Shown here one piece after another: positions 591-20,136 of a stretch of DNA of 21,756 nucleotides; positions within the stretch are counted from its first letter, which is position 1, and every line of letters begins with the position of its first letter. The DNA is from a virus. The position numbers were made by a program, and so were the translations under genes. Location: the IMG/VR virus record IMGVR_UViG_3300027896_000255, positions 1 to 21,756 of that record; one strand, written 5' to 3'. The notes beneath the pieces were generated by a model. The model was not told the origin of the DNA. It saw nothing but the letters and a program-made list of their open reading frames with translations, and ran no database searches.

Positions 591-844
591 TACTCATCTT
601 CGGCTTCTGAATGGTTCAAAACTTCCTGTAATAATTCATCTGTTGTCCAACCAGACTGACTAAGGATTTGAATGGAACTTATAAAGAGAGTGAAAATTGA
701 TGAAGTATAATCAAAGTTTGGAAGTACTCCTTCTTTCATGTAAAGTTCTTCGATTGCCTTTTCTGCTTCTCTATTGCATACATCCAGATCAAAGTAATAT
801 ACTGTTCCGTCTTCAAGGATTTCGACACACTCATTGTCTTTCAT
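590..844 (-). CDS. Small conserved-looking hypothetical protein, 84 aa
   Basis: I do not recognise a named family. The protein is acidic: an N-terminal strand-like part (ILEDGTVYYFDLD), a helix rich in Glu (residues 24-38), a hydrophobic stretch (FTLFISSIQIL, about residues 51-61) and an amphipathic C-terminal helix ending in SEAEDE. There is no signal peptide or clear transmembrane segment. The start overlaps the stop of the HNH gene by four bases (ATGA), and its own stop overlaps the start of the GNAT-like gene, so all three genes are probably translated from one message. The overlaps and ordinary codon use support a real gene; its function is unknown. Confidence 0.65.
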   Translation of the reverse strand: MKDNECVEILEDGTVYYFDLDVCNREAEKAIEELYMKEGVLPNFDYTSSIFTLFISSIQILSQSGWTTDELLQEVLNHSEAEDE

Positions 845-1593
845 TTTCTTTTCCTTCCACCTAGACTCCAGCCTTCAAGTAGCCATTGATCAAGTGTATC
901 ACGTTTGACTTTCTTTTCAATACCGTCTTTGTTGATAGATACATTACCTAGAACGGCATTTCTTACATTGTCGGAGTGACCGGGTTTCTTCTTCTGCCCT
1001 GTCATAGTCATAGAACGTTTTAACTTTTGTTCTTCACTCATCGGACCTTTGGGGCGACCTTTCAATGCTAAACTTTTTTTAAGTTTGGCTTCTTCGCTCT
1101 GCTTAGTTCCTATTATTTTTGCTACTCTTTTCTTCTGTGATTCCGAAGAATACACTTTACCTGATGCGTGATTAGCTTTAGCGCTTTCTCTTAGCAAGGC
1201 TTTTTGTTCTTCGGGCATTGCCCTACCCTTGTTCGCAGGAGTTCTACCTTTCATTGTTTTGGAATGAGCTAGGGAGTGTTCAATACGATATCGTTCATAT
1301 ACACGAGCGGTTATATAGGAAGAGTATCGTTCTTGGTATTCATTGTTTGCCTTCATCCCGCGCAAAGCATATATCATTTTACTTCTTGATTCGCCCTCTG
1401 TCATTTTTACAAGGAGCCAATGACAAATGAAATGTTCTCTTGCAGTGAGGTCTACTAGGTTTTCTCTATCATTAGAGCCGCCTAGTGATTGAGGGATTAT
1501 ATGATGGCGTTCGGTATATTCGGTCATCGTCCGACCTTTGGCCCTATCTGTGATGAGCAAGTAGTATTTGGTATATTTGTTTTCTTTGAACAT
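841..1593 (-). CDS. HNH homing endonuclease with NUMOD-type DNA-binding repeats, 250 aa
   Basis: The N-terminal third carries an HNH nuclease motif: H30-H31 (ERHHIIPQSLGG), N45 (ENLVDLT) and H54 (REHFICHWLL), the His/Asn/His metal site of this family. From residue 114 there are several basic NUMOD3-like modules (MKGRTPANKG, LKGRPKGPMSEEQK, MTGQKKKPGHS) that in homing endonucleases bind the target DNA. The C-terminus (DGIEKKVKRDTLDQWLLEGW) resembles the small tail module seen in many phage HNH proteins. It would cut a homing site in related phages lacking the gene and spread by repair. It is free-standing, with no intron visible, and sits downstream of the gp23 terminator. The start at 1593 is preferred because NKYTKYYLLI belongs to the usual N-terminus of the family; an internal ATG at 1527 has a better ribosome site. 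Confidence 0.85.
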   Translation of the reverse strand: MFKENKYTKYYLLITDRAKGRTMTEYTERHHIIPQSLGGSNDRENLVDLTAREHFICHWLLVKMTEGESRSKMIYALRGMKANNEYQERYSSYITARVYERYRIEHSLAHSKTMKGRTPANKGRAMPEEQKALLRESAKANHASGKVYSSESQKKRVAKIIGTKQSEEAKLKKSLALKGRPKGPMSEEQKLKRSMTMTGQKKKPGHSDNVRNAVLGNVSINKDGIEKKVKRDTLDQWLLEGWSLGGRKRK

Positions 1594-4048: not shown

Positions 4049-4591
4049 TTATCTAGTCCCTTTATCTACATAAGTAACATTGTTACTTGTTTTGCCCTTG
4101 TTCCATGGAATTCTTCCCTTTAATTTTAAAGATCGCAATTCATTAGATTCGGGCGTTTGCTTGGGTCTTGGTTTTCCTTTATGTCCGGCTGCGTGTTTTT
4201 CACAGTATTCCGGAGTCATTTGTTGACCTTTGTTCCAAGCTAATCTTCCTTTTTTGGCCAACCCTAATTTAAGTTTGTGTTCATCAGTTTGAGGTACGCC
4301 GCCCTTAAATTTAAAGTTTCCATCTCCATTATGTTGATTGAAACTTTCTTGGTTGTGCTTCGCATCTGATTCAGTTAAAAGTTTGGTTTCTAATTCCAAC
4401 ATTTCATATACTTCACCAGTTGCGATTATTGATCTATCCCAATCTTCTGGATCAGAGACAATCATTGGTTTTACTATTCTACTAGAACAGATATACCCGT
4501 CATCAGGGTGGCACGTTTTCGCAGTACGTGAACCAATATACCACTTTCCAGTAGATAATTGTGTCCATTTATATACATACGGAAGTGTCAT
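4049..4591 (-). CDS. GIY-YIG homing endonuclease with NUMOD3 motifs, 180 aa
   Basis: The N-terminus has the two strands of a GIY-YIG nuclease (YVYKWTQ at 5-11, the GIY part with G replaced by Y; KWYIGSRT at 17-24, the YIG part), a Glu-containing helix with the likely metal-binding Glu (LELET, around E66-E68) and a later QHNGDGN segment like the Asn-Gly region of the family. The C-terminal half carries NUMOD3-type DNA-binding modules (KKGRLAWNKGQQMT, HKGKPRPKQTPE, LKGRIPWNKGK). It is a free-standing mobile endonuclease inserted between genes 21 and 22. It begins nine bases after the gp21 stop with a good ribosome site (AAGGGG), and its own stop touches the gp22 ATG. Its last codons supply the gp22 ribosome site, so its 3' end cannot be lost without affecting the scaffold gene. 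Confidence 0.85.
   Translation of the reverse strand: MTLPYVYKWTQLSTGKWYIGSRTAKTCHPDDGYICSSRIVKPMIVSDPEDWDRSIIATGEVYEMLELETKLLTESDAKHNQESFNQHNGDGNFKFKGGVPQTDEHKLKLGLAKKGRLAWNKGQQMTPEYCEKHAAGHKGKPRPKQTPESNELRSLKLKGRIPWNKGKTSNNVTYVDKGTR
4057..4063 (-). promoter_or_regulatory. Ribosome binding site of gene 22 inside the GIY-YIG gene
   Basis: The minus strand reads AAAGGGACTAGATAAATG. The AAAGGGA lies in the final Lys-Gly-Thr codons of the endonuclease and the last TAA ATG joins the two genes without a gap, so gp22 translation is probably coupled to that of the endonuclease. Confidence 0.65.
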
Positions 4592-6554: not shown

Positions 6555-7388
6555 ATGACTATTTATTTGTACAAGAAAACCCACAACAAAACTGGCCTTC
6601 AATATTTAGGAAAAACAGTTCAGAATCCATTCAAATATAAAGGTTCCGGAGAACATTGGGTACCTCATATTAAAAAACACGGTTATGATGTTACTACAGA
6701 AGTATTACGAGAATGTCAGTCCAATGAAGAAGTTAAACAATGGGGAAGGTATTACAGTGAACTTTGGAATGTTGTAGATGAGAGAGATGAAAATGGTAGA
6801 AAAACATGGGCAAATCTTAAACCCGAAGAAGGTGACGGAGGTCGCACTGTTTGGGGTGACAGCCATCCGTCAAAACGTTCTTCATTCAAACAAAGAATGG
6901 AAGAAGTATGGACTGAAGAGAAAAGAGAGCAATCTAGTAAATTATCACATAAAATAGCAGAAGAGCGCCCTAACGAAGAGAAAAAGTTAGTTAGTGAGAA
7001 ACTTAAGAAAACATGGGCTAATAACCCAGACAGGAAAAAAGAACTAAGTGATAGAATGAGGGAGCATAATCCTGTTCAGAATGCTTCCGTGATAGAAAAA
7101 ATTAAAAACACGAAAAGTGAGTGGTCATCAGAGCAGAAAGCGGAAGTAGTAAAGAAAACCTCAGGTCCAAATCATTATCGTCACGATCCAAACTATAAAT
7201 CCACTCAAGTCGGTGAGGGGCATCCCAATTTTAATGCTACCTTATACACTTTCTTTAACGAGAATACTCAAGAAATAGTTACTATGACTATTTTCGACTT
7301 CATCAACGCTTATAACTTACATCAAGGAAATGTTAGTTTAATAGTAAACGGAAAAAGGAGGTCACACAAAGGATGGGTAGTTTGTTAA
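6555..7388 (+). CDS. GIY-YIG-like homing endonuclease, 277 aa
   Basis: The N-terminus MTIYLYKKTHNKTGLQYLGKT matches a widespread phage homing-endonuclease family in which YLY and YLG replace GIY and YIG. It is followed by NPFKYKGSGEHWVPHIKKHG (24-43), the equivalent of the Arg/Lys region, then a helix with E69 and N87. The middle (105-210) is charged helical linker. The C-terminus (residues 245-277, ending NGKRRSHKGWVVC) resembles a NUMOD1-like helix-turn-helix that binds DNA. It is the only gene on the plus strand inside the head module. It sits between the gp20 stop (2 bases away, convergent) and the small basic gene, with its own late promoter. It is probably mobile and not needed for growth. 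Because the YLY/YLG motif is a variant, nuclease activity is inferred, not shown. Confidence 0.8.
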   Translation: MTIYLYKKTHNKTGLQYLGKTVQNPFKYKGSGEHWVPHIKKHGYDVTTEVLRECQSNEEVKQWGRYYSELWNVVDERDENGRKTWANLKPEEGDGGRTVWGDSHPSKRSSFKQRMEEVWTEEKREQSSKLSHKIAEERPNEEKKLVSEKLKKTWANNPDRKKELSDRMREHNPVQNASVIEKIKNTKSEWSSEQKAEVVKKTSGPNHYRHDPNYKSTQVGEGHPNFNATLYTFFNENTQEIVTMTIFDFINAYNLHQGNVSLIVNGKRRSHKGWVVC

Positions 7389-9215: not shown

Positions 9216-12200
9216 TTAAGTCTGTACATGTTGCAATATCTTCTTCTGTGTACCGTGACTTTCTTCTATCGCTCTAGTTACACGAGTCATTGTACTATTC
9301 AAAGTATCCAAATGACTTCCTAGCTTTTCGAAATGTTTAGTGTTTTCGTTATTTTGCTGCTGCTGGGCAAATTCCTGAGGACGATGTTGTTGCATGTTTT
9401 GTCCAGCAGCAGGTTCATTATGAATTTTAGAAGTTATGTAGTTAGGTGCATATGTACCCGATGAATTGTCCAAACGAACATTGGCCACTGCTAAATTCGG
9501 TCTTGTTTGTTTTGGGATAGCGAAAATTCTCGGATCTTCTAATTCAGGTGTTTTATTAGAAGCTTTGTGTGCTATTTGTTTTGCTTGTGGCTTTGGTGCA
9601 GCTTTTTTCTTAGCATCATCCTTTACCATATAATCAGCGAGTAGTTTGCCGCCCTTTTCGCCTAGCCAACTACCTATTGCACCGCCAGCAGTAGCACCAA
9701 GCACAGTGCCAACAGGACCAAGCAATGATCCTAGGGCGCCTCCTGCTAATTCACCAACTCCTGCACCTACCGCTGCCCCTGTTCCAACTATGCCAGCCTT
9801 TTTGAGTGAAGTTCCAGTTGAATCACCTTTCTTTTTGTCAGCTTGGTATTCTTCATATCCTGAAAATCCACCTGCAACAAGAGGACCCAAAGCTCTTCCG
9901 CCAATCTTAGCTAATGGTTTAGCTAGTTTAGATAAGAAACTACCACCTGCCTTTTCGGCTGCTTCCGCTGCTGCTTTTGCAGGCGCGCCTGCACCAAGAC
10001 CACCCATTGAACTTCTTGCTGCTTTTGCTTCTGCTATAGCTGCTTCTCTAGCTGACATTTTTGCAGCAGCACGAGCTTCTTCTCCTGTCATGGATTTAGC
10101 GACGGTTTTACTACCAAACCCAAACTTTTCAGCCAGTGTTCCCAATGCAGATTTAGCCTTTGACATCAAAGAACTACCAACTGATTTCACGCCTTTCCAG
10201 ATAGATCCGATGTTTGCCAGCATTTTCCCACCTAAATATCCCATCGGCGCACTGAGAGAAGGGTGACGTTCTAATAATGATTTTTCAGTTTTAGGTGTGG
10301 TTGCTTTAGTTTTACTAGCTTTAGCTGATTTTTCAGTTGCAGTTTTGTTAGCAAGATTATGCATCTTATTGATGCCATCTCTTATTTCCTTAAGAAGATT
10401 GTTATCGTCTGTGGCCAGTCTTAGGTTTCTATCAGATGCTGGGTCGTAAATCTGTGTTCCGCCTTGACCAGATACTGATGAAGTCTTGTCCATCAAGTCT
10501 TTCATCTGTCTCGTCGTGTCAGAATCAGCAACTTTACTAAATTGCTTTAACGTTTCTGATTTAGTGTAATTGTTAAGTTCTTCTAGTTTGCTACCTGCTC
10601 TATGCTGAGCATTGTCAACCGGAACGATCATTTCCGTTCCGTGCAACAGTGCAGGATATCCGGAATCCGGACCAGAGAACAATCCGCCGTTAGCTGCTTG
10701 AACCCATCCGCCTTCATTTCGTTGGGCGCTAAAATGCATGGCATCTTTTCTAGTTCGCCAGTCACCGCCCCAGCCCAATCCAATATTATGAGCATATTGA
10801 ATTGCTTCAGGTGGCAAATCACTAATTAACGCATTACCTAAAGGATTCGAATCCGGATTAATGTCTAAAGCAAGACCTTTAGCATGGGCGCTTTTTACAC
10901 CAGGCATTCCCACAACGTCACGATTGGAATAACCACCTAGACTTTTGATTCTGTATCCTGCTTGAGTCAAGAAATTCAATAAGCTTTGGAAAGCCTGTGC
11001 AGCAACTGGAGCAACTTGAACGCTTTTACCTTGTGCTCCTACACTAGTCAATTGTAAATCTTGTGGCCCACCCAATCCAGAACCAAATCCGCCGCGGCCG
11101 GTACCACCCATTTCACCGGCAATGCCTCTGTATGTGCCCATCCATTGTTGTGCGTACTGGGACACTTGACCGCTGTTTACTGTGCTATTCGTACCGTTTA
11201 TATTCCCAGTGTACCACGCTACGGGAACTCTAGATACGTCACCGCCTGACTGCGCTAATATCTCTTGTACCCGATTTGCTGCTACTTGATCTTGAATACT
11301 AGCCGGCGCACTAGCAGCGGTGGCATATTGTGTACCTATACCATATTTTCTAGTAAGTCCTTGCCAAGTAGGATTAGTGAATTGATAGGCACCTGACGCA
11401 GTAGAACTTGGATTTTGTGCAGTATAGTTACCTTGCGCTGAACCTGATTCTTGCTTTCTAATAGTAGCAAGAACAGCGTCCATGTTACCACCGAATTGAG
11501 TAGGTGTATTGGAGTTGTTAGTATCTCCACTTACCCCTAGACTTCCATTACTAGTATTTCTATATTGATCCGCTAAATTATTAACACTCTGTATTAGCTG
11601 GTTAATTGAAAAGTTTAATCGGTTAAATGCACCCATTAATCCAGTGCCGCCGCCAACATTCGCGTCGATGGATGATTGATCTACACTATTCCCTGCCTGT
11701 TGAGCAGTTGCTTGATCATTTGATATATCAGGAGTTCCCGGAGTAGTTTGGTCCGGTGATGAGGCGGTAGTAGGTTGTGCAGTAGTTTTATCACTATCCC
11801 CACCTGTTAGCCACTGATAACCTTTATACAGTCCATATCCAGCGGCGCCTATTGCCAGTGCAGGCAATACTATTTCAGGTGCTATAAGTGCTCCTGCTCC
11901 CAACGCTTCGCCACCCGCCGCAAGCCCACCTATACCTTCCGCTGCTCCGACCGCAGTAGCACCTTCCGCTGCTCCGGCTACACCTGCGCCCTCTGCTGCT
12001 CCAACTGCTGCTTCACCCTCGGCGGCGGCGCCGCCTCCCTTGAACATTTTACCGAGCTTACTGAACATGCCTCCGCTACCAGCAGCTTCGGCTCCTCCAC
12101 CTTTGAATAAGTTCAAAACGCTTCCACCAGCATTCATAGTTGCGCCGGCTAAAAATATTTTAGAAGCAACACTGAATACACCAACAGCGGCAGAAAACGC

Positions 12201-13775
12201 AGCTATTGTTCCTACTAAACCTTTAACACCTTGGGTATCTATTAACTTTTGCAAGTTTTCTTGGTACATCGCTTGCATTTTCAACATTTGATTGTTAATG
12301 TCTGCTTTATCGGATGCTTCTTTGCTGTATGGTTTGCCGGTAACCGGATCTATATTTTTACCTATAGATTCTTCACGTTTTTTTTCAGCATCATCCATTT
12401 GCTGCAAAGTCGGACCAACACCAGTGCCCGTTTTCTGAGCCAGCATTTTAGCCACGGCGTCTTTGTTTACACCCACAGTTTCTAACTGTTCCGGAGAATA
12501 TTCTGCTATAGCAGAACCGGGACCAATCAACATATTAGTTTGACCGCGTAATACCTGTTCACCTACGTCTAACGCGGAAATTTTTCCTTCCTTGTATGCA
12601 TTAAGCTGTGCTAAAACGTTAGGATCGGATACTGTAAGTGGTGCTGAAAATGCACTAGGAGCGCCGCCTGATCTTAAAAGTTGCTGCAATTGCATTACAT
12701 TAGTTGCACCTATTCTACTAACCATTTCAGGACTGTCTAATGCCCTTAATTGGTCTAGTAGTTTCTGTGCAGCAGCAGCACCAGGGCCGCCGCGGGCCAC
12801 TTGAGCCTGTAATGCGACTTCCTTTGCTTGCTCTTCAATTCTATTTTGTACTTCGAGTTGTTCTTTTTGTTGCTGGTCTGCGTTTTCCCCTGTTAATGTT
12901 CTTACTCGGTTTAATGTTTCCACATATGCGAGGGATTCTTTCTGCAACTGACCCATCGTCATATGCTGCATTTTGTATGCATTGCCTGATGCTGTTTGCA
13001 TCTCTACATACTTACCCATACCGTCAATCAATTCATCCTGAGAAACACCCAGCATTTCAAATTTCTTACGTATGGAATCAGCAGACTTTCCAGCAATGTC
13101 ATTCATTGCTGCCATTTTCATGAATTTAGTAGCACCTTCACCTGAAGTGTTTCCAAGTGCAACCATGCTTCCACTAACCTTAGATATGGCTTGCTGAAGC
13201 ACCTGCATTCTTTCTCCAGAAAATCTAGCTTCAGCCGACAGTTTAGAAATGTCTTCCAGTGATGCTGAGATTGTACCGTTGGTTTTGTTTAGGGCATCTC
13301 TAAATCCAGTGGTTTGATCTACTAATTTTAATGCGTCTGCTTCTAGTTTGGCAAAAGCCTGAACTAATAGTCCGGCAATCTGTGCCAATGGTCCCATATT
13401 TTCGGTAAGTTTGGATACTGCCATACTAGATTCAATAGCAGCAGCACCGAACTTACCTACACCTTGCTCTCCGCTTAAGGCGGCGCGGCCAAAGCTCATC
13501 AAGCTTCTAGTGGACATTTCAATAGCTTGGTTATATACTTGAAGCGTTTTCGCAGTTTCTACCATTGCTTGTCGTTCAGCAGCAGTAAGGTCTTTTACGG
13601 CTTGTGATGCGTTTTTGTTTGCTTCTGTGTTTTTGTTTATAGCTTCACTATTGTCAGACAAGTTTTTCATTGAATTTAAGTGCGCTTCCATAGCACTATT
13701 ATTCTGACCCATAAGATCGGTCATCTGCTTTAGCTGTTCTTGAAACTCATGTAAGATTTCCGGATCTATATCCAT
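9216..13775 (-). CDS. Tape-measure-like giant tail protein with lytic transglycosylase and M15 peptidase domains, 1519 aa
   Basis: The N-terminal 500 residues are long helices. Hydrophobic segments at about 518-548 and 626-652 and a Gly/Ala-rich stretch near the C-terminus are typical of tape measure proteins, which set tail length and enter the host envelope. Residues 764-885 form a lysozyme-like transglycosylase domain (ATIRKQESGSAQGNY with likely catalytic E776, then ASGAYQFTNPTWQGL and the AWYTG segment). Residues 918-1018 form a zinc M15 DD-peptidase-like domain: SAHAKGLALD supplies H964 and D971, and DAMHFS supplies H1014. Next comes GGLFSGPDSGYPALLHGTEMIVP (1030-1052), a motif common in tape measures. 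An AAEG-repeat linker covers about 582-625. T4 gp29 has 590 residues and no such domains. The gene lies beside the gp26-like gene, transcribed divergently. Whether it replaces gp29 or is a separate virion hydrolase is unresolved. Confidence 0.8.
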   Translation of the reverse strand: MDIDPEILHEFQEQLKQMTDLMGQNNSAMEAHLNSMKNLSDNSEAINKNTEANKNASQAVKDLTAAERQAMVETAKTLQVYNQAIEMSTRSLMSFGRAALSGEQGVGKFGAAAIESSMAVSKLTENMGPLAQIAGLLVQAFAKLEADALKLVDQTTGFRDALNKTNGTISASLEDISKLSAEARFSGERMQVLQQAISKVSGSMVALGNTSGEGATKFMKMAAMNDIAGKSADSIRKKFEMLGVSQDELIDGMGKYVEMQTASGNAYKMQHMTMGQLQKESLAYVETLNRVRTLTGENADQQQKEQLEVQNRIEEQAKEVALQAQVARGGPGAAAAQKLLDQLRALDSPEMVSRIGATNVMQLQQLLRSGGAPSAFSAPLTVSDPNVLAQLNAYKEGKISALDVGEQVLRGQTNMLIGPGSAIAEYSPEQLETVGVNKDAVAKMLAQKTGTGVGPTLQQMDDAEKKREESIGKNIDPVTGKPYSKEASDKADINNQMLKMQAMYQENLQKLIDTQGVKGLVGTIAAFSAAVGVFSVASKIFLAGATMNAGGSVLNLFKGGGAEAAGSGGMFSKLGKMFKGGGAAAEGEAAVGAAEGAGVAGAAEGATAVGAAEGIGGLAAGGEALGAGALIAPEIVLPALAIGAAGYGLYKGYQWLTGGDSDKTTAQPTTASSPDQTTPGTPDISNDQATAQQAGNSVDQSSIDANVGGGTGLMGAFNRLNFSINQLIQSVNNLADQYRNTSNGSLGVSGDTNNSNTPTQFGGNMDAVLATIRKQESGSAQGNYTAQNPSSTASGAYQFTNPTWQGLTRKYGIGTQYATAASAPASIQDQVAANRVQEILAQSGGDVSRVPVAWYTGNINGTNSTVNSGQVSQYAQQWMGTYRGIAGEMGGTGRGGFGSGLGGPQDLQLTSVGAQGKSVQVAPVAAQAFQSLLNFLTQAGYRIKSLGGYSNRDVVGMPGVKSAHAKGLALDINPDSNPLGNALISDLPPEAIQYAHNIGLGWGGDWRTRKDAMHFSAQRNEGGWVQAANGGLFSGPDSGYPALLHGTEMIVPVDNAQHRAGSKLEELNNYTKSETLKQFSKVADSDTTRQMKDLMDKTSSVSGQGGTQIYDPASDRNLRLATDDNNLLKEIRDGINKMHNLANKTATEKSAKASKTKATTPKTEKSLLERHPSLSAPMGYLGGKMLANIGSIWKGVKSVGSSLMSKAKSALGTLAEKFGFGSKTVAKSMTGEEARAAAKMSAREAAIAEAKAARSSMGGLGAGAPAKAAAEAAEKAGGSFLSKLAKPLAKIGGRALGPLVAGGFSGYEEYQADKKKGDSTGTSLKKAGIVGTGAAVGAGVGELAGGALGSLLGPVGTVLGATAGGAIGSWLGEKGGKLLADYMVKDDAKKKAAPKPQAKQIAHKASNKTPELEDPRIFAIPKQTRPNLAVANVRLDNSSGTYAPNYITSKIHNEPAAGQNMQQHRPQEFAQQQQNNENTKHFEKLGSHLDTLNSTMTRVTRAIEESHGTQKKILQHVQT

Positions 13776-13877: not shown

Positions 13878-14888
13878 ATGGATAACACTACACCACCAAA
13901 CACTACTCCGGCAAGTAATGCAGGTATACCTAGCGGCGGGTTCATACCTACTAATTCAGCGCCGGCTAGCCCTATTCCTACACCACCGCAACCTCAAATA
14001 GCAGCCCCAGTTCAAACTACTGTGCCCGTTATGCAGCCGCCAGCAACACCTGTGCAACCTGCTACAGATGTGAACCCACTACGACAGTATTTTAGAAGAC
14101 CAGCAGTTCATATTAGATTGCCTAGCAACGGAGTGGGGTATTCACCTGAGGTATTAGATATGCCTTCTACTGGAGAACTTCCAGTATACCCAATGACTGC
14201 AATTGATGAAATCACTGCTAGAACGCCAGACGCGCTCTTCAATGGTTCGGCAGTCGCTGAGCTAATTAGAAGTTGTATCCCAAGTATCAAAGATCCATGG
14301 TCTATAACCAATATTGACTTAGATGCTATTTTGATTGGTATTAAGGCAGCAAGCAGTTCAGGTGATATGGATATCGACACTATTTGTCCCGAATGCAATG
14401 AAGAAGGTAGATTCGGTGTAAGCCTAATAGGTCTTCTGTCATCTTTAACTACTCCTGATTACACCGTGCCATTTACAGTAGATGAGCTATCCGTTAAGTT
14501 TAGACCTTTAACTTATAAAGAAATAAATGCAGTATCAATCAAGCAGTTTGAAATACAGCGCGAGTTTGCTGCCATTGCTTCCATCACGGATCAAAAAGAA
14601 AGAGATGAAAAAAGTCATGCAGCTTTAGAAAAAATCACATTCTTGTCATTGGATTTGCTCGCAGACACAGTTGAATTTATTCAAACTCCTGCGGCTAAAG
14701 TTACCGATAAGAAGTTTATTCTTGACTTCTTGAAGAACTGTGACAGAAATGTTTTCATAAAACTAAGAGATTACAATGCATCCTTGAAGGAGTCAGGTGA
14801 AATTAAGCCTCTCCAAATCACATGTCAAGAATGTAACCATGAATACACTCAGCCATTCACGTTGAACCCAGCAGATTTTTTCGAGTAA
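13878..14888 (+). CDS. 26: gp26-like baseplate hub / tail assembly chaperone, 336 aa
   Basis: Residues 1-66 are Pro/Thr/Ala-rich and probably disordered. The folded part starts at RRPAVHIRLPSNGVGYSPEVL and contains GELPVYPMTAIDEITARTPDALFNGSA (99-125), a pattern found in T4-like proteins annotated as baseplate hub gp26. Two CxxC pairs (C170/C173 and C316/C319) form a likely zinc ribbon. The C-terminus ends PADFFE at a TAA directly after a slippery T TTT TTC sequence, and a -1 shift would add 76 residues (see the next entry). The gene is divergent from the giant tail gene, as expected for a chaperone acting on a tape measure. It has a good ribosome site (AAGGA). T4 gp26 is about 200 residues; the extra length is mainly the N-terminal tail. 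Confidence 0.75.
   Translation: MDNTTPPNTTPASNAGIPSGGFIPTNSAPASPIPTPPQPQIAAPVQTTVPVMQPPATPVQPATDVNPLRQYFRRPAVHIRLPSNGVGYSPEVLDMPSTGELPVYPMTAIDEITARTPDALFNGSAVAELIRSCIPSIKDPWSITNIDLDAILIGIKAASSSGDMDIDTICPECNEEGRFGVSLIGLLSSLTTPDYTVPFTVDELSVKFRPLTYKEINAVSIKQFEIQREFAAIASITDQKERDEKSHAALEKITFLSLDLLADTVEFIQTPAAKVTDKKFILDFLKNCDRNVFIKLRDYNASLKESGEIKPLQITCQECNHEYTQPFTLNPADFFE
14876..14882 (+). promoter_or_regulatory. Slippery heptamer T TTT TTC for -1 frameshifting
   Basis: In the gp26 frame the codons are GAT TTT TTC GAG TAA. The heptamer T TTT TTC fits the X XXY YYZ rule and lets both tRNA-Phe re-pair in the -1 frame. It lies two codons before the gp26 stop. The -1 frame then stays open for 76 codons with no usable start codon of its own near its beginning. 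Confidence 0.75.
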
Positions 14889-15112
14889 GGCTTCTACACT
14901 CCAGCCCCGAGGAGATTAGAAAGCTGCTAGAAGGTTACGAAAAAGATGTCGAGGCAATCAAAAAGGCCGCGCTAACGTTGTCATGGTATATGCGCGGCGG
15001 CGTTTCCTATGAAGATGCACTAAACATGAGTGAATTTGAGCGCCGAGCCATACAAGAAATTATCGAAGGTAATTTGGAAATCACTAAGAAAACCCAGATG
15101 CCGTTCTTCTAA
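14882..15112 (+). CDS. 51: gp51-like extension made by -1 frameshift from the gp26-like gene, 76 codons
   Basis: This frame encodes an extension starting RVRLLHSSPEEIRKLLEGYE and ending in NLEITKKTQMPFF. The core, LTLSWYMRGGVSYEDALNMS-EFERRAIQEIIEGN (about residues 31-64 of the extension), resembles short tail-assembly ORFs that occupy the gene 51 place after gene 26 in T4-like phages; that assignment is from memory and needs a search. The frame has no ATG, GTG or TTG between its last upstream stop (14840-14842) and a TTG at 14978, well inside the conserved part, so separate initiation is unlikely. Fusion to the first 335 residues of the gp26-like protein gives 411 residues. This mirrors the short/long chaperone pairs (such as lambda G and GT) that load tape measure proteins. 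Confidence 0.75.
   Translation, partial: RVRLLHSSPEEIRKLLEGYEKDVEAIKKAALTLSWYMRGGVSYEDALNMSEFERRAIQEIIEGNLEITKKTQMPFF
14890..14924 (+). other. Stem-loop downstream of the slippery site, likely frameshift stimulator
   Basis: GCTTCTA (14890-14896) pairs with TAGAAAGC (14917-14924) with one bulged A, and CTCC (14899-14902) pairs with GGAG (14911-14914) around an eight-base loop. The stem begins seven bases after the heptamer, within the 5-9 base spacing used by stimulatory structures in known -1 sites. Confidence 0.6.
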
Positions 15113-15217: not shown

Positions 15218-15289
15218 CTTTAGTTTTATTCAGGATCTATTTGGATTACTGATTCTCTTTAATTGTTTCATTTAGAAAGAGCTACTTGC

Positions 15290-15665
15290 CGGTCAGGAAG
15301 CCATGGTAGAGCCAGTCAATGGCTCTACCTAGACTTGGTCCATGCCATGGCCTGTCATCCTTTGCTGTTTATCCCCCGTCAATCTAGCCCTTATGCTGAT
15401 TGACGCTACCGGTTGCCCTATAAAGTTTGCTGGGGCTGTAGTGAGGTGTTACCTCGGCAACGCATGTTTCACAGAATCAAAACAGAATATCTGTGAACTC
15501 ATTCAGGGTTCGACTACCTATCGAGAGCCCTGTCGGTGTTCCACAAGCTTTCAAGAAGCCTGTGCTTATGAAGGAATGCACCTTCGGCCCCAGATTCTGT
15601 TCGCAGTATTTCATGCGTTCTCAAGGGGAGTCGAGGATCCTCGACCAAACAGCTATGTTTCGGGT
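15290..15665. ncRNA. Candidate large structured noncoding RNA, about 375 nt
   Basis: No plausible protein gene fills this stretch, but it is packed with exact complementary arms: 15305-15314/15320-15329 (10 bp), 15377-15384/15398-15405 (8 bp plus inner 3 bp), 15412-15417/15456-15461 (6), 15443-15447/15451-15455 (5), 15462-15466/15612-15616 (5-7), 15471-15478/15593-15600 (8), 15482-15486/15490-15494 (5), 15504-15508/15528-15532 (5), 15535-15542/15573-15582 (8 with bulge), 15543-15550/15556-15563 (7-8 with a mismatch), 15630-15635/15640-15645 (6), 15647-15651/15656-15660 (5). Most nest into one multi-branched fold closed by 15460-15466/15612-15618. CTGGGGC (15430-15436) and GCCCCAG (15587-15593) could add a crossing helix. 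Base composition is more GC-rich than nearby spacers. I do not recognise the family; it is not tmRNA, RNase P RNA or a group I intron by the signatures I know. The strand cannot be decided from pairing alone. Confidence 0.6.
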
Positions 15666-15675
15666 TCTTGGGGAG

Positions 15676-16245
15676 TTAGATGTTGATGGTTAAAATATTA
15701 GCTGATGAATCTGACATGGTGTCTGATGTGCTAGATGTTGAGCCTGAATATGCTTTGTAGAGTTCTTTGTTATTTTTAAAAAAGTGATCAAATTCAATAA
15801 AGATCCAGTCGCCTACTTTAGCAGAACTATAGTAGGCGAAGTTATCTGTAACCCAAGTATACTTGGTTTGAACAGCGACATAGCGACCTTTACGATTGAA
15901 CTTCATGAATAGAATGTTGCAATCGTCTTCGTCGGCTACAGCCATAAGCTGTTCAAGCCAGGCATCAATTACTTTGCAGTTTCCTGAAATCATTAGATGA
16001 AACGGGAAGTCTGCATATGATTTGCATTCTGCATTGAACTTAGTAAAAGACTGTCCAGGTACGATGTCACCCTTGAAGCTACGAATCTGTCCTTCATGAA
16101 GGAACTCTTTTCGTGATTGGTTCTTACCACCAACATATGCGCCTGAGCCTGGAGCCCTGATGAAACTTTCATTGTAAGTTTCTGACAGGAACTTAGCGAC
16201 TTCGCGCTCAAATGATGAACCTTTTGCTTTCTGTGGTGATGACAT
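15676..16245 (-). CDS. PD-(D/E)XK nuclease, Holliday-resolvase-like, 189 aa
   Basis: The order of motifs fits a RecB/resolvase-type nuclease: KGSSFEREVAKFL (8-20, with E13 at the first helix), FIRAPGSGAYVGGKN (28-42), then GDIVPG (D60) and NAECKSY (E73 and K75), giving D-x12-E-x-K, the metal-binding core. A later strand-rich part (ILFMKFNRKGRYVAVQT) may complete the fold. The C-terminal 25 residues are Ser/Thr/Asp-rich and look disordered. It follows gp46 on the same strand after 42 bases, so a role in recombination or repair with gp46/gp47 is plausible; an alternative is a resolvase replacing T4 gp49. A GATAAATT sequence lies five bases before the ATG. The 3' end borders the structured RNA region. 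Confidence 0.75.
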   Translation of the reverse strand: MSSPQKAKGSSFEREVAKFLSETYNESFIRAPGSGAYVGGKNQSRKEFLHEGQIRSFKGDIVPGQSFTKFNAECKSYADFPFHLMISGNCKVIDAWLEQLMAVADEDDCNILFMKFNRKGRYVAVQTKYTWVTDNFAYYSSAKVGDWIFIEFDHFFKNNKELYKAYSGSTSSTSDTMSDSSANILTINI

Positions 16246-19374: not shown

Positions 19375-20136
19375 TTAGTATTCTTTCAATATATAACCGT
19401 TATGATACACTTTTGCTTTTGATTTTTCAAGTAAAGTGGAAAACCACTGTCCCGTTTGTCGTTGCATTTCGCTTCTACTTTTAAAGGTTAGAATGGTTCC
19501 ATCTTCTTTCTCTAGTACTACTGCCTTTGATACTTTTGCAGCACCTTTAAGCCCATTTAATCTACTATTTTCGGTTGCTTTTTCTTTGTTAACTCGGTGC
19601 CAGTTTTGAATAGCTTGACCCTTCGCAGCTTTAACCTTTGGATTGTGATCGTAAAATTTCTTTAGCGTAGCAGCTTTTTTCTTCTGAACGTCGGGAGTAT
19701 GTAAGTGAGCAACCGCCTTTTTCTTCTCATCTTTAGTCATGTTTGACCATTTTTTCTTATTATATTCAGCCCAGTGTTCGCCCAACGACTGTCGTATCAT
19801 TTGAATTTCTTCTTCAGTCATTGAAGCTAAATCATGTTTACCGATACCATCGCCGCCGGGAGAGGAATTGAGTCCGTTTCTATAAGAATCATGCTGTTTT
19901 ATTAACTCTATTTCTGCAACTGCTAATGATGACAAGGAAGAAAAGTCAGTCTTTAATACTTCGTAAATGCAATTTTCAAGTCCGGCCTCCCTCATAGCAA
20001 CATGAATTTTTCTAGCGGAATTGCCTTCCGCATCTTTGCAGTGAAGTTTCCATCTTGATTCTTTGTAAACGGGTTTAGTATCAAGCCCAATATAGCATTT
20101 GTTCGTTGTAGTAACTGTGATTTTGTATATAAACAT
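19375..20136 (-). CDS. GIY-YIG homing endonuclease between genes 55 and 47, 253 aa
   Basis: The N-terminal domain is a full GIY-YIG nuclease: FIYKIT (Y4), KCYIGLDT (Y15-I-G17), a basic helix with R28, AVAEIELIK with E75/E77 as the metal-binding Glu, and NGLNSSPGGDG (N90) at the end of the domain. The middle (100-200) is a charged helical linker with repeated Lys-rich segments (KKKAATLKK, KGAAKVSK). The C-terminus (FKSRSEMQRQTGQWFSTLLEKSK) looks like a small helix-turn-helix DNA-binding module. It is probably a Seg-like mobile endonuclease. It has the only exact TATAAATA promoter in the window. The preceding gene's hairpin suggests separate late transcription, but its stop lies one base from the gp47 start. 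Confidence 0.87.
   Translation of the reverse strand: MFIYKITVTTTNKCYIGLDTKPVYKESRWKLHCKDAEGNSARKIHVAMREAGLENCIYEVLKTDFSSLSSLAVAEIELIKQHDSYRNGLNSSPGGDGIGKHDLASMTEEEIQMIRQSLGEHWAEYNKKKWSNMTKDEKKKAVAHLHTPDVQKKKAATLKKFYDHNPKVKAAKGQAIQNWHRVNKEKATENSRLNGLKGAAKVSKAVVLEKEDGTILTFKSRSEMQRQTGQWFSTLLEKSKAKVYHNGYILKEY

Follow-up and report, generated by a model that had tools for sequence, protein, structure and literature searches.

The gp26-like gene of the virus sequence analysed here (a record of 21,756 nucleotides, 21.8 kb, referred to as the window) very probably undergoes a programmed -1 ribosomal frameshift, by which a 336-aa short form and a 411-aa long form of a tail-assembly chaperone (TAC) would be made. 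A frameshift extending a gp26-like chaperone had been proposed in a first-pass annotation of the window and is strongly supported by comparison with related loci. The comparison shows a conserved slippery heptamer, a conserved -1 frame, a covarying stem in the window's own clade and homology to T4 gp26/gp51, and from these we infer the frameshifting itself. The gene content of the window indicates a T4-like phage: the major capsid protein gp23 and the portal gp20 are encoded, as are SMC/AAA and metallophosphoesterase proteins of the gp46/47 kind. Four probable homing endonuclease genes sit between its T4-type core genes. The positions of all features are collected in Table 1.

Table 1. Features of the window, with position, strand and basis of the assignment
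Feature	Positions	Strand	Basis
gp26-like gene, putative TAC-N short form, 336 aa	13878..14888	+	Pfam T4_baseplate PF12322
Slippery heptamer T TTT TTC, in frame (codons TTT TTC)	14876..14882	+	TTTTTTY in 154/154 homologues
Spacer from heptamer to stem, holds zero-frame stop TAA 14886-14888	14883..14889	+	
Two-part stem-loop, probable stimulator; outer stem GCUUCU/AGAAGC	14889..14928	+	Compensatory changes in the window's clade
-1 frame extension, putative TAC-C, 76 codons (CGA 14882 to stop TAA 15110-15112)	14882..15112	+	
Divergent neighbour, 1519 aa, M15 peptidase domain, tape-measure-like	9216..13775	-	RaK2 annotation
Probable homing endonuclease gene (HNH- or GIY-YIG-like)	841-1593	-	Sequence
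Probable homing endonuclease gene (HNH- or GIY-YIG-like)	4049-4591	-	Sequence
Probable homing endonuclease gene (HNH- or GIY-YIG-like)	6555-7388	+	Pfam weak, below cut-off
Probable homing endonuclease gene (HNH- or GIY-YIG-like)	19375-20136	-	Pfam weak, below cut-off

The product of the gp26-like gene possesses two CxxC zinc-knuckle-like motifs and ends in NPADFFE. It matches PF12322 with an E value of 3.4e-12 and 47 bits, which is above the cut-off of 24.5 and places it in the family, and it also matches phrog_150 'baseplate hub'. The short form was modelled with AlphaFold at a pLDDT of 81, and the best BFVD match of the model is a viral 'baseplate hub assembly protein, T4-like' (E 1.8e-25). 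Comparison of the same model with the PDB yielded mainly helical matches to residues 194-292, the best having a Z of 8.7 over 55 residues, and nothing usable. The closest annotated relatives of the protein are found in large phages, among them Sinorhizobium phage Phosso, Agrobacterium phage Atu_ph07, PBECO4/121Q, RaK2 and PA5oct, and are about 25-35% identical. The window's protein carries an extra N-terminal tail of about 60 residues that is rich in Pro and Thr (13878-14066). The pLDDT of this tail is mostly below 55, and it is absent in the ten annotated relatives that were aligned.

In the zero frame the gp26-like gene ends GAT TTT TTC GAG TAA, and the heptamer is positioned in the phase needed for -1 slippage. 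Conservation was assessed in ten annotated phages, 144 viral contigs and the window, which after removal of one truncated contig gave 154 loci with a complete gene end. An in-frame heptamer is found at the same Phe-Phe pair in every one of these loci, as TTTTTTC in 143 and as TTTTTTT in 11, while the zero-frame stop follows the heptamer at a distance that varies between 3 and 13 codons. From the codon usage of the individual genes, about 42% of genes with these amino acids should contain the heptamer, and it is seen in all 92 representatives. The corresponding probability is about 10^-38.7 if the representatives are treated as independent, a figure that is overstated as shared ancestry is ignored. 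Chance is ruled out as the source of the heptamer and the -1 frame because both are conserved across homologous loci. The first-pass annotation had pointed to T TTT TTC near the gp26-like stop and had suggested looking for it in related phages; the heptamer was confirmed on both counts.

Beginning at the slip site, the -1 frame stays open up to its stop codon and adds 76 codons past the FF pair, so that residues 1-335 and the extension together make up the 411-aa long form. There is no ATG, GTG or TTG in this frame of the window over the first 32 codons, the first TTG being at 14978 and the first ATG at 14990. Every homologous locus has a -1 frame that stays open over 70-79 codons, and the proteins encoded there are related and mostly begin with FFRxxLL. 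The AlphaFold model of the extension is all helical with a pLDDT of 89, and a search of BFVD with this model gave no match below an E value of 0.001. These results agree with the initial description of a protein-like extension, encoded in a frame that is open for 76 codons and has no start codon near its beginning.

Could the extension be a separate small gene whose translation begins at the gp26-like stop, through reinitiation or coupling? It has been given its own CDS, as a hypothetical protein or predicted ORF, in the annotations of Phosso, XbC2, 121Q, SCTP-2, Vibrio 2.275 and XacN1. A start codon overlaps the stop in some relatives, as TAATG in 121Q and XbC2 and as ATGA in Phosso, and separate initiation is therefore possible there. 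However, besides the 32 codons without a start in the window, 56 of the 92 representatives, window included, lack any ATG, GTG or TTG among the extension's first 12 codons, so that in those phages the extension is likely made by frameshifting. In addition, the FFRxxLL sequence is kept upstream of any start, the codons of the FF pair are fixed to the slippery choice, and no annotated gene begins at the junction in PA5oct, RaK2 or Atu_ph07. A separate gene is considered very unlikely, and a frameshift at the heptamer is the preferred reading.

Downstream of the heptamer the minimum-energy fold is the two-part stem-loop listed in Table 1, at a spacing of 6-7 nt, as the earlier description of a seven-base spacer followed by a two-part stem-loop had it. 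The stem was tested in 55 representatives of the window's clade with the ungapped alignment A2, in which the named structure was compared with shuffles and with slid controls. The structure was paired in 77% of cells, versus 73.5% for shuffled and 39-55% for slid controls. Its covariation score was 0.197 versus 0.137, and none of 500 shuffles scored as high. Both sides of the outer stem have changed from CG to UA at columns 19/45 and from GC to AU at columns 15/49, and both-side changes of several types are present in the inner stem. With dinucleotide shuffling, the fold energy of the clade gave a mean z of -2.60 +/- 0.20, and six control regions gave -0.65 to +0.13. With synonymous recoding the z was -4.23 (controls -1.07 to +0.08), but this value is probably too favourable to the stem, since the recoded sequences are likely richer in AT than the stem region, and the mean z of -2.6 from dinucleotide shuffling is thus the fairer figure. 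For the window alone the dinucleotide-shuffle z was weak, -0.62 and -1.55 in two runs, so the structural case rests on the clade. RNAalifold proposed no consensus helix for the 56-nt alignment. Jumbo phages outside the window's clade give a weak signal for the stem (mean z -0.66), which is therefore regarded as a feature of the clade and not a general one. The conservation of the stem in relatives, which the first-pass annotation had also suggested examining, was accordingly found within the clade, in covariation and in fold energy, and not in the other jumbo phages. On the evidence of covariation and fold energy, the stem-loop is a probable frameshift stimulator in the window's clade, which supplies a well-supported candidate for reporter work.

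The arrangement of the slip site and the stem also bears on transcriptional slippage, in which RNA polymerase would add a U on the T run and some mRNAs would enter the -1 frame. The site is indeed a run of T, and a few relatives have eight (TTTTTTTTCC in loci L038, L044, L047 and L049). However, the runs are mostly six T followed by C, in the exact X XXY YYZ phase, and six T is short for polymerase slippage. This phase, together with a covarying RNA stem at ribosomal spacing in the window's clade, fits ribosomal frameshifting better than slippage by the polymerase, and the latter is judged highly improbable. In the four loci with eight T, transcriptional slippage could add to ribosomal frameshifting. 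A sequencing error or a recent inactivating mutation that split one continuous gene, a formal possibility for any lone sequence in which two frames abut, is refuted because the same frame relation is conserved across isolates and many metagenomes (154 loci), and its probability is negligible.

In the proposed ribosomal frameshift, most ribosomes would stop at 14886 and produce the 336-aa short chaperone (TAC-N). As to efficiency, we infer that a minority of ribosomes, stalled by the stem-loop some 7 nt further on with P- and A-site tRNAs on TTT TTC, would shift one base backwards onto TTT TTT. The slipped ribosomes would then read CGA GTA AGG CTT CT and onwards to 15112, which would give the 411-aa TAC-NC with a small helical C-terminal domain. 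Family homology and the analogy with lambda gpG/gpGT suggest a chaperone role toward the tape-measure protein, in which both forms, present at a constant ratio, would coat this protein and bring it to tail-tube assembly. The client of the chaperone would probably be the 1519-aa divergent neighbour. This protein is likely tape-measure-like, an identity that rests on RaK2, where an annotation note describes the gene in the same position, beside gp26, as similar to a tape measure protein.

The extension is missing from the public annotation beside the gp26-like gene in the PA5oct group, RaK2 and Atu_ph07 (loci L005, L006, L009 and L002). Where the short CDS beside gp26 is 'hypothetical' or missing, it should instead be entered as the C-terminal portion of the frameshift product.

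Directly 3' of the frameshift cassette there is a non-coding segment of about 400 nt (approximately 15285-15665) that is strongly conserved in many relatives. In many relatives the DNA at the equivalent place is 67-82% identical to it across 200-400 nt, and the gp26-like proteins of the relatives that share it are mostly 50-60% identical. Some blastn match to the segment was obtained in 93 loci, a few of these matches being short. RNAalifold, applied to 27 sequences in alignment A7 (15250-15690), predicted 67 pairs, of which 30 have compensatory changes. The segment has no credible Rfam match and contains no tRNA, and no match was found in 50,697 annotated phage records. It probably represents a large structured RNA, not described before, that belongs to an uncultured jumbo-phage clade. 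It has been considered whether this RNA shares a transcript with the cassette and works with it, for instance as a 3' element for regulation or stability or as an RNA associated with assembly, and this is put forward as a tentative and rather unlikely idea. If true, the cassette would be a combined recoding and structured-RNA module specific to the uncultured jumbo-phage clade.

The relation of the two forms to the T4 proteins follows from the extent of the shared domain. T4 gp51 (249 aa) matches PF12322 over residues 1-201 with an E value of 3.9e-52 and then has about 48 C-terminal residues, T4 gp26 matches the family at 8.8e-64, and phrog_150 spans gp51 nearly end to end. Since gp51 contains a full gp26-type domain plus a C-terminal piece, it corresponds to the whole long form; calling the extension 'gp51-like', as was done at first, was imprecise. 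By these matches T4 encodes the short and long forms as separate genes, and genes 26 and 51 are separate, as the first-pass annotation had it, and divergently placed. An hhalign comparison of the short-form alignment with T4 gp26/gp51 was uninformative, and the relation was settled by Pfam. When the window's extension was compared with the gp51 tail, hhalign aligned NM-x-ER motifs at a weak probability of 9.6%, and a profile search did not detect the phrog_150 tail in the window's -1 frame; the case for sequence homology of the extension with the gp51 tail is no more than suggestive. In T4 gene 26 the FF residues are kept as TTC TTT, there is no slippery site and the -1 frame is closed. By the frames worked out from match coordinates, S-PM2, P-SSM2, HTVC008M (Pelagibacter) and Cr30 have the C-terminal portion of phrog_150 in the -1 frame behind their gp26 gene, and T4 gp51 has it in frame. 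The cyanophages S-PM2 and P-SSM2 have T TTT TTC at the same FF pair and a -1 tail, and Caulobacter phage Cr30 has T TTT TTT.

The abstract by Vladimirov and colleagues reportedly names genes 26 and 51 and describes frameshifting in several T4-like groups. As related in PMC10885494 and PMC12846349, Vladimirov, Gautam & Davidson 2022 (Virology 566:9-15) identified the TAC genes of T4-like phages. The same two papers describe poly-T slippery sequences in the TAC-N genes of T4-like phages, and short and long TAC forms that are encoded in some of these phages as separate genes instead of by frameshifting. The present reading of T4 gp26/gp51 agrees with that work as it is related there. The first-pass annotation had suggested that a fused pair would explain how genes 26 and 51 relate; according to these accounts the relation had already been explained (Vladimirov et al. 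2022). T4 gp26 and gp51 have been listed as hub assembly chaperones, gp51 being required yet absent from the particle (PMC3004832). A literature search for frameshifting in jumbo phages returned nothing relevant. Frameshifted short and long TAC forms are well known in other phages and have already been reported for T4 relatives; the window is a clear new example and not a new principle.

Unlike in lambda gpG/gpGT, the tape-measure-like neighbour of the window is divergent and not downstream, and the slippery sequence and protein family differ as well. The lambda -1 frameshift is the classical TAC case and is reviewed in PMC5009743. With the T4-like TACs, as they are described in the accounts of Vladimirov et al. 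2022, the window shares the N-terminal family PF12322/phrog_150 and the poly-T slippery site. It differs from them in belonging to a distant jumbo-phage branch together with Phosso, Atu_ph07, 121Q, PA5oct and RaK2, in having a longer and diverged C-terminal piece, and in a stem-loop that is specific to its clade. In T4, gp26 and gp51 both match PF12322 over about 200 N-terminal residues, and gp51 has an additional C-terminal piece where the window has the extension; unlike the window, T4 uses two divergent genes with no slippery site, and its gp51 tail resembles the extension weakly in sequence. Distant T4-like jumbo phages, including RaK2, 121Q, PA5oct, Atu_ph07, SCTP-2, Vibrio 2.275 and the uncultured clade, share the frameshift arrangement, and this wide spread fits the view that the separate genes 26 and 51 of T4 are the exception.
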